Shown here one piece after another: positions 22,493 to 23,501 of a stretch of DNA of 64,000 bases (the stretch's first letter is position 1; each line of letters opens with the position of its first letter). A program made the position numbers and the translations under genes. This stretch comes from Sphingopyxis sp. H053. Lineage in GTDB: Bacteria > Pseudomonadota > Alphaproteobacteria > Sphingomonadales > Sphingomonadaceae. The notes below the pieces were generated by a model. It was not told where the DNA came from, made no database searches, and saw nothing but the letters and a program-made list of their open reading frames with translations. Where the stretch lies: the NCBI RefSeq assembly GCF_001468225.1, contig NZ_LNRU01000006.1, positions 248,001 to 312,000 of the forward strand. Reading direction: 5' to 3'.

Positions 22493-22581
22493 GCCATCTA
22501 GCCGCTTGCACAGCGAAACGACCGCATTAACATGGGCTTGGCCGTACCACCCCCGGCACGGCCCGACCTGTGGAGGATGGC

Positions 22582-22758
22582 ATGGCCCATTATTTCGAGA
22601 TCAAGAAGAACAAGGCCGGCGAATTTGTCGCCTATTTCAAATATAATAGCGAACCCATCTTCTGGACCGAAGGCTATAGCAGCAAGGCCTCCGCACAGAA
22701 TGCCATCGACTCAATCCTGAAGAACGGCCCGGGCGCCGAAGTCCGCGAAGCCGAGTGA
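22582..22758 (+). CDS. DUF1508 (YegP-like) small protein
   Basis: 58 aa from ATG 22582 with GGAGGA a few bases upstream; a GTG at 22570 would add four residues. It carries one DUF1508 unit: FEIKKNKAGEFVAYFKYN, then EGYSSKASAQNAIDSI. This family is soluble and widespread, with no firm biochemical function. It stands alone, followed 5 nt after the stop by the inverted-repeat element at 22764-23029. Confidence 0.85.
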   Translation: MAHYFEIKKNKAGEFVAYFKYNSEPIFWTEGYSSKASAQNAIDSILKNGPGAEVREAE

Positions 22759-22763
22759 TGCCC

Positions 22764-23029
22764 AGGGTCGGGACCTACTAATTGCGCGATCGAGGCGTCG
22801 AAATGGCGAAGATATCGGGTTCGGGTGGCCGCCGCGGGTAGCATCGCTACCCGCAAGGTCACGCGGACACGAGATCGAAGCCATTTCGGCGTCCCTTCGG
22901 GATTTGACCGATTTTGTCCATTGCGTCGTCGGCAAGTCTGGAAATATCGACATATTCCTGCGCCTTGCCTCCTCGCACTGAACAAAATCGCTTCAAACCT
23001 CGATCGCGCAATTAGTAGGTCTCGACCCT
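22764..23029. mobile_element. MITE-like element with 32-bp terminal inverted repeats
   Basis: Left arm 22764-22795 and right arm 22998-23029 are inverted copies matching at 31 of 32 bases; both share the core CTACTAATTGCGCGATCG. The 202-bp interior has no credible ORF. Its left half folds into a long imperfect hairpin (about 22799-22890) around a perfect 9-bp stem GCGGGTAGC/GCTACCCGC with an ATC loop. The right arm ends within the rnhA stop codon (23028-23030). Size and structure fit a non-autonomous miniature transposable element, or a dispersed structured repeat acting as a terminator between converging genes. No target duplication is clear. Confidence 0.65.
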
Positions 23030-23501
23030 AACGCGCGGGTGCCCTGCGCGCCCGCGCGACTTCGAGGGCGGCGTCGCTCGCCAGCTGGTCGGCGAGTTCA
23101 TTGTCGCCGTGACCCGCGTGACCCTTGACCCAAATCCATTCGACCTTGTGCCGTGCGTTTTCCTTGACGAGACGCTGCCACAGATCGGCATTGGCGACCG
23201 GCTTTTTCGCCGCGGTTTTCCAGCCGTTCTTTTGCCAGCCGAAAATCCATTTGGTGATGCCGTCGCGGACATAGACGCTGTCGGTCGACAACTCGACGTT
23301 GCAGCTGCGCTTGAGCGCGGCGAGCGCTTCGATCGCGGCCATCAATTCCATGCGGTTGTTCGTCGTGTCGGGTTCGCCCCCCGACAGCTTTTTCACGACG
23401 TCGCCCCAGCGCAGCACGGCGCCCCAGCCGCCGGGGCCGGGGTTGCCCTTGCACGCGCCGTCGGTGGCGACGATCACGGTCTTGCCGGTGTTTTCGCTCA
23501 T
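23028..23501 (-). CDS. rnhA: Ribonuclease HI
   Basis: 157 aa; degrades the RNA strand of RNA-DNA hybrids. The DEDD active site is intact: D14 (ATDGAC), E52 (RMELMAA), D74 (STDSVYV) and D138 (NELADQLA), each offset by four from E. coli. The ATG overlaps the thrB stop (ATGA). The TAG stop shares two bases with the adjacent inverted-repeat element, so the element may have reshaped the extreme C-terminus or supplied the stop. Confidence 0.95.

Follow-up and report, generated by a model that had tools for sequence, protein, structure and literature searches.

ERIC, the Correia elements and RUP are short, non-coding, dispersed repeats with long inverted repeats and a conserved fold, and both Correia and RUP also use TA. 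The element described here differs from all three in hosts, sequence and partner, and in that it holds two internal hairpins of ~100 nt and regenerates stop codons. Its closest autonomous counterparts are IS5-family insertion sequences of the IS427 group (IS1248, ISKpn12 and relatives), which are common in Alphaproteobacteria and share with it the terminal GGGTCAGGACCC/GGGTCAGGACTC and a TA duplication, mostly in CTAG; in contrast to them, it has no transposase and an unrelated interior. IS1248 is listed as an IS5/IS427 element of 832 bp with a 2-bp duplication in PMC3281130, and ISKpn12 would fall into the same group, judging from its likeness to IS1248A-type elements. MITEPye1 of Paracoccus yeei is, like our element, alphaproteobacterial and non-autonomous, with inverted ends and predicted long stem-loops; however, its ends match IS1182-family elements rather than IS427, and it occurs in 1 to 3 copies per chromosome (PMC11578231). 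REPINs and CGTC-tagged REPs resemble the element as paired hairpin repeats and in the CGTC next to a stem, but here the hairpins are ~100 nt long and lie inside a miniature inverted-repeat element (MITE) that has inverted ends and duplicates TA, and no Y1 transposase was found in this genome. Among the matches listed in a literature search that left most subscription journals and ISfinder outside, we found no description of this MITE family.

The window, that is, the whole stretch of 64,000 nucleotides from Sphingopyxis sp. H053 that was analyzed, carries the element on its plus strand at positions 22764 to 23029, with ends set by empty sites and recent copies. It lies between two convergent genes that both read into it: a short putative DUF1508 gene from the left (22582 to 22758, plus strand) and rnhA, named by resemblance and encoding 157 aa (23028 to 23501, minus strand). 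The earlier note had described a 266-bp element with two inverted 32-bp arms matching at 31 of 32 positions. An inverted-repeat search recovered exactly these arms (22764 to 22795 and 22998 to 23029, 97% complementary, 202 nt apart), which are the left and right strands of an outer stem, P1. The outermost bases, A22764 and T23029, belong instead to TA target duplications, and the element proper, GGGTC...GACCC, spans 264 bp (22765 to 23028). The right duplication (23029 to 23030) still reads TA, and the left one (22763 to 22764) is now CA, decayed from TA, as judged from the sequence and the comparison with empty sites.

Between the arms, where a long internal hairpin had been noticed previously, lie two internal hairpins. 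The left one, P2 (22796 to 22891, plus strand), has its arms at 22796-22830 and 22857-22891, and the right one, P4 (22903 to 22997, minus strand), has them at 22900-22925 and 22974-22999; a small central hairpin, P3 (TCCCTTCGGGA), occupies 22892 to 22902 on the plus strand. P4 is a conserved module, of which P2 is possibly a diverged inverted copy. It scores 113.6 bits with R2, a model of P4 alone that was built with the window copy included; on the minus strand its family motif is CGCAGGAAUAU...UUCMAG...CGACGAAGC, and the window copy reads CGACGACGC. The RNA fold of positions 22750 to 23045 reaches −170.8 kcal/mol, compared to a mean of −105.2 for shuffled sequences (z = −12.8), and none of 200 shuffles was as good. 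The cargo of the element is a long hairpin, with P1 as its outer stem enclosing the internal hairpins P2 and P4 and the tiny P3. The interior had been described as free of open reading frames, which holds insofar as no frame remains free of stops in more than 20 of the 72 relatives aligned and no conserved one exists, although mechanical open reading frames of 68, 80 and 103 aa overlap the element.

The element is mobile. Apart from its small size (264 to 266 bp) and the lack of a transposase gene, it behaves as expected of a MITE in its dispersal: the Sphingopyxis genome from which the window derives holds 14 full copies, 75 to 100% identical to the window copy (its remaining matches being self-matches of the arms or the antisense strand), and matches were found in 65 of 80 congeneric genomes and, within the family, in 52 of 397 genomes (26 of 96 genera), each count including the own genome. 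The family figure is a lower bound, because only two candidates per genome were scored. Copies are also present on six plasmid records of Sphingopyxis, Sphingobium and Novosphingobium, among them the F plasmid of S. alaskensis RB2256, and the phage search gave no match. Plasmid pF1 of Sphingobium yanoikuyae bears two copies ~1.8 kb apart; the second (L422:944-1215) is diverged, and the first is adjoined by an IS5 transposase with GAGCCC ends.

Recent transposition is most evident in S. alaskensis (genome G001) and in genome G010, in each of which the nine copies sampled sit at different sites and are 97.0 to 99.6% and 96.6 to 99.2% identical, respectively; both genomes hold further copies beyond these 18. 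TA flanks the element on both sides in 16 of the 18, and 15 of these 16 fit YTAR, whereas among 43 mostly older copies both TAs are intact in only 17. Two shortened derivatives (L459:8172-8328 and L455:1002-1131), one without P2 and the other without P4, have kept both arms paired.

The rnhA locus itself provides the corresponding empty sites. Among 30 rnhA loci, one is the window and one (L135) does not have both genes side by side; the element is absent from all 28 others of the genus, 26 of which are clean and two of which bear a 12-bp remnant. In L124 and L125, which encode an identical RnhA protein, the site reads CGCGC-TA-AGAAT, compared to CGCGT-TA-(element)-TG-GGCAT on the same strand of the window. 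The nearest relatives shown (L124, L125 and L127 to L130) all end rnhA with TAA, and the nearest have an empty CTAA site, so that the original stop codon at this locus was TAA. The alignment of the empty sites therefore identifies the TA of the rnhA TAA stop as the target and shows that one duplicate has since decayed. This is the exact gene border that the insertion had been suspected of choosing; dispersal among sphingomonads, empty sites in the gap between DUF1508 and rnhA, and target duplications had all been proposed as checks, and all were found.

L150, L153 and L045 (the last with the same reading as L153) show TA-GGGTCCTGACCC-TA or a variant at the rnhA spot. Remnants of this kind, TA-GGGTC(AG or CT)GACCC-TA, occur at several other sites in G001 and G010 (e.g., L462:860, L466:1001 and L468:1001). 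Such a remnant is what one would expect to be left if the stretch between short direct repeats of the arms (GGGTC or GACCC) were deleted.

As an alternative to a mobile element, the earlier note had considered a large structured bidirectional terminator, that is, an RNA or terminator structure fixed at this one locus between convergent genes. The position between two such genes, the very stable fold and a strong covariation all agree with this idea: across 39 copies, 51 of 100 base pairs have changed on both sides with pairing kept, and the covariation score of 0.260 was reached in none of 500 shuffles, a test that related rows can inflate, and fell to 0.058 or less with slid partners. Yet the element is found at many sites and is missing from all 28 related loci, positions 22764 to 23029 contain no terminator-like site (a GC-rich hairpin followed by a T run), and the covariance models of Rfam 15 gave no match in positions 22500 to 23300 of the window up to an E value of 1, nor in six loci at gathering scores. 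Dispersal, absence from relatives and the missing terminator signal leave this alternative with next to no probability. Restriction to a single locus together with covarying stems had been named as what would favor it; only the covarying stems were observed, which argues that a conserved fold and mobility coexist in this element.

How, then, does the element move? The first 15 bp of the family consensus (GGGTCAGGACCCATT) are identical to the ends of IS5-family, IS427-group elements of ~840 bp that duplicate TA, and the left end of the window copy agrees with them at 12 of these 15 positions. Two contigs of G010 begin inside a repeat that terminates in GGGTCAGGACCCATT and encodes the first part of an IS5-type transposase, the close partner in this genome being visible only as these two truncated contig ends. 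The repeat matches IS5-family elements, many of them labeled ISKpn12, on 276 plasmid records; the partners are annotated as IS5 family, ISKpn12 or IS1248A, and ends of the GGGTC or GGCTC type were clear in five of seven plasmid loci examined. Of 30 transposase loci within the genus, 21 have a pair of such ends at a distance of 831 to 925 bp, which typically read TAGGGTCAGGACCCATTGATTTG and TAGGGTCAGGACTCATTGATCAG; CTA stands before the pair in 15 of the 21, and TAG stands after it in 18. The 5′ end of one of them, L507 (TAGGCTCAGGACCTATTAATTGC), is a single base off the arm of the element copy L016, and in S. alaskensis, where recent copies occur, TA-flanked elements of 895 bp end in GGGTCGAGACTCAATC/GGGTCCAAACTCAATC. 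The interior of the element shows no similarity to these insertion sequences (best E value, 0.08).

These data point to a MITE as a non-autonomous DNA transposon that is mobilized in trans by IS5-family transposases of the IS427 group, a reading to which we assign a probability of roughly 0.88. Mobilization by this group is suggested because both the ends and the target are shared. The transposase would recognize GGGTC-type ends, join them to a TA (mostly within YTAR, often CTAG) and duplicate the TA. A transposase with matching terminal repeats was the remaining check proposed at the outset, and the insertion sequences that carry the family consensus ends, together with dispersal, empty sites and target duplication, strengthen the MITE interpretation offered there. 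OrfA of the partner has matches in 54 of 80 genomes of the genus, many of them distant, compared to none at an E value of 1e-10 in the own genome (G000); the 14 copies there are hence probably orphaned. In the genomes with recent copies, the OrfA matches are likewise only distant (at most 47% in G001 and 26% in G010).

Other candidate partners were considered and rejected. The single PF01609 gene of the own genome encodes another IS5-type transposase, with no matching end at up to five substitutions in its 3.35-kb locus. Three further IS5-type elements of S. alaskensis, L513, L514 and L515, are 842 to 851 bp long and have perfect 16-bp ends next to TA, but these ends read GGCTGTAGTGACAATT (L513 and L514) and GGCGCTGTCTGCATTC (L515). 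The transposase locus L516 of G010 yielded no end pair.

TA duplications also fit IS630, and a stem with CGTC beside it, as in P4, could suggest that a Y1 (RAYT) transposase moves the element, which would then be REPIN-like or of the IS200/IS605 type, or else that it is an IS630/Tc1-like MITE. CGTC-tagged palindromes predominate in Alphaproteobacteria and have stems of 8 to 9 bp, according to PMC3733652. A REP or REPIN of this kind would have such a stem beginning with AT after the CGTC, a short loop and a CCA tail; in P4, the stem after the CGTC is GGCAAG or similar and is interrupted by internal loops. Neither a Y1_Tnp (PF01797) nor a DDE_3 (PF13358) match is present in the own genome, the two being found in 15 and 17 of 80 genomes of the genus, respectively. 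Paired ends could be recognized in 12 of 26 DDE_3 loci, none of them with GGGTC, and it is the ends of the IS427 group that match the family consensus. Mobilization by either of these enzymes is thus highly improbable.

We then turn from the ends to the cargo. In a search that scored six candidates per genome, three genomes outside the family matched, and R2 gave 60.2 bits (L235), 48.8 bits (L236) and 40.6 bits (L234) for elements from three other alphaproteobacterial families. The background did not exceed 17.6 bits over viral loci totaling 715 kb, 14.6 bits over rnhA loci totaling 576 kb with true elements excluded, and 17.9 bits with filters off. L234 has GGGTC ends, and the other two have different ones: L236 is shorter, lacks P2 and has different yet paired arms (TAGAGCATAATCC), and L235 ends in TAGGCTGTATCGACAG, in which, by eye, 12 of the 16 bases after the TA agree with the S. 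alaskensis insertion sequence L513. In these elements the unpaired loop letters of P4 (CGCAGGAA, CAAG and CGACGAAGC) are largely kept, and we regard 41 to 60 bits together with shared loop letters as convincing. A degenerate P4 pattern was of little use, as it hit 75 of 385 genomes of the class, by eye mostly by chance, with only the own genome and G682 recognized, the latter already known from the search outside the family; the hits listed for it in viral contigs supplied the viral background loci.

S. alaskensis harbors a second MITE of ~270 bp (L457:1517-1787), which has ends TAGAGCGCGATGAC and arms of 34 bp (TAGAGCGCGATGACMTGATATTGACCC) and folds in a similar way overall. Its copies in L455, L463 and L513 are 96 to 99% identical, and no match to it was found on plasmids. 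Two of its hairpins match R2 in inverted orientation with 33.9 and 27.4 bits, compared to 10 to 11 bits on the wrong strands. Since the wrong strand of a true P4 gives 18 to 37 bits, hairpin shape alone reaches such scores, and the match is only suggestive of a shared P4 hairpin.

Whether a single module, once inverted, gave rise to both P2 and P4 is a related question, and such a descent is possible, although not shown. When the P2 consensus was aligned globally with reversed P4, the score was 32, compared to a mean of 28 and a maximum of 54 for shuffled sequences, which lends it no support. When R2 was run with filters off on 11 loci, 9 of 10 elements with P2 gave an inverted-strand match there (8.7 to 29.4 bits), the exception being L234, and two elements also gave a weaker match on the same strand. 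Only L235 (29.4 bits), L195 (20.1 bits) and L203 (19.2 bits) exceeded the best background of 17.9 bits; P2 of the window copy, at 10.6 bits, lies within it.

Given a module that recurs behind different ends, it is tempting to speculate that the hairpin cargo, and not the transposon ends, is the mobile unit under selection, a conserved module of ~100 nt, paired head to head, that several MITE families with different inverted repeats have taken up. We put this forward tentatively, at less than even odds. Under this reading, a structured RNA or single-stranded DNA cargo would hitchhike on several DDE transposases, and the module would have dispersed across the Alphaproteobacteria and come to lie in stop codons, where it is read in the transcripts of neighboring genes. 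Alternatively, the fold could be that of a MITE without any function, the covariation reflecting homogenization at the DNA level by template switching or hairpin-mediated conversion. The outer stem speaks for such copying: over bases 7 to 25, the P1 arms match at 94.5% within a copy but at 66.7% between copies (37 of 43 loci), and G-U mismatches in P1 are not in excess over A-C ones (32 versus 28 cells), just as DNA-level copying predicts. Because of these two observations, we infer that copying of DNA from one arm to the other helps to keep them complementary. Across the 72 copies aligned, G-U and A-C cells number 146 to 11 in P2 and 12 to 36 in P4, as if each hairpin were an RNA on its own strand; pair-level sign tests were not significant (p = 0.19 and 0.30), and we therefore do not claim an RNA-strand reading for P2 and P4. 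Arm copying does not, however, explain the P4 loop letters kept in the elements of other families, nor does a fold without function sit easily with an element length that is nearly constant across genera at 68 to 75% identity. On balance, we consider the functionless fold a doubtful explanation.

The position of the copies relative to genes offers another view of the same element. The rnhA stop codon, TAG (23028 to 23030, minus strand), combines the duplicated TA with the element's first G, so that the right arm does share bases with it, as claimed before, namely C23028 and T23029. Both strands of the element begin with G, so that a TAA or TAG stop codon hit in its TA is re-formed in place as TAG, and the neighboring protein thereby keeps its length; at rnhA, the insertion turned TAA into TAG. 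Using gene predictions by codon score, trained on the window, for 42 copies, we found the duplicated TA within the stop codon of an adjacent gene in 15 of them, always as TAG; among non-coding sites, the share is 7.1% for TA and 15.7% for YTAR. With a shared site removed, the count is 14 of 41 (p = 0.003 against the YTAR background). An in-frame TA inside a gene would likewise give TAG, but an origin within genes would make the other two frames about twice as common, and these are in fact rarer. None of the 42 copies is spanned by a predicted gene, a count that a gene cut in two would escape, and five predicted genes run 18 to 37 bp into a copy. Judged by our own gene predictions, copies are thus in excess at stop codons. 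One may guess that the hairpins are read as RNA at the 3′ ends of genes and that this makes insertion there tolerable.

In a sample of 41 copies (loci L001 to L043), transcription entered from the right end of the element at 17 of the 22 sites with co-directional neighbors and from the other end at 5 (p = 0.017, one test among several).

In conclusion, the element belongs to a MITE family of a known kind, with IS427-group ends, that carries an unusual conserved cargo. A family widely spread among sphingomonads thereby gains a probable partner, a target rule and an anatomy, and the regeneration of stop codons explains how such elements can take up residence at the ends of genes while the protein pays no price. 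A hairpin conserved across elements with different ends suggests that some bacterial MITEs may carry a selected RNA or single-stranded DNA cargo instead of being mere deletion remnants, and the family described here provides a testable case.
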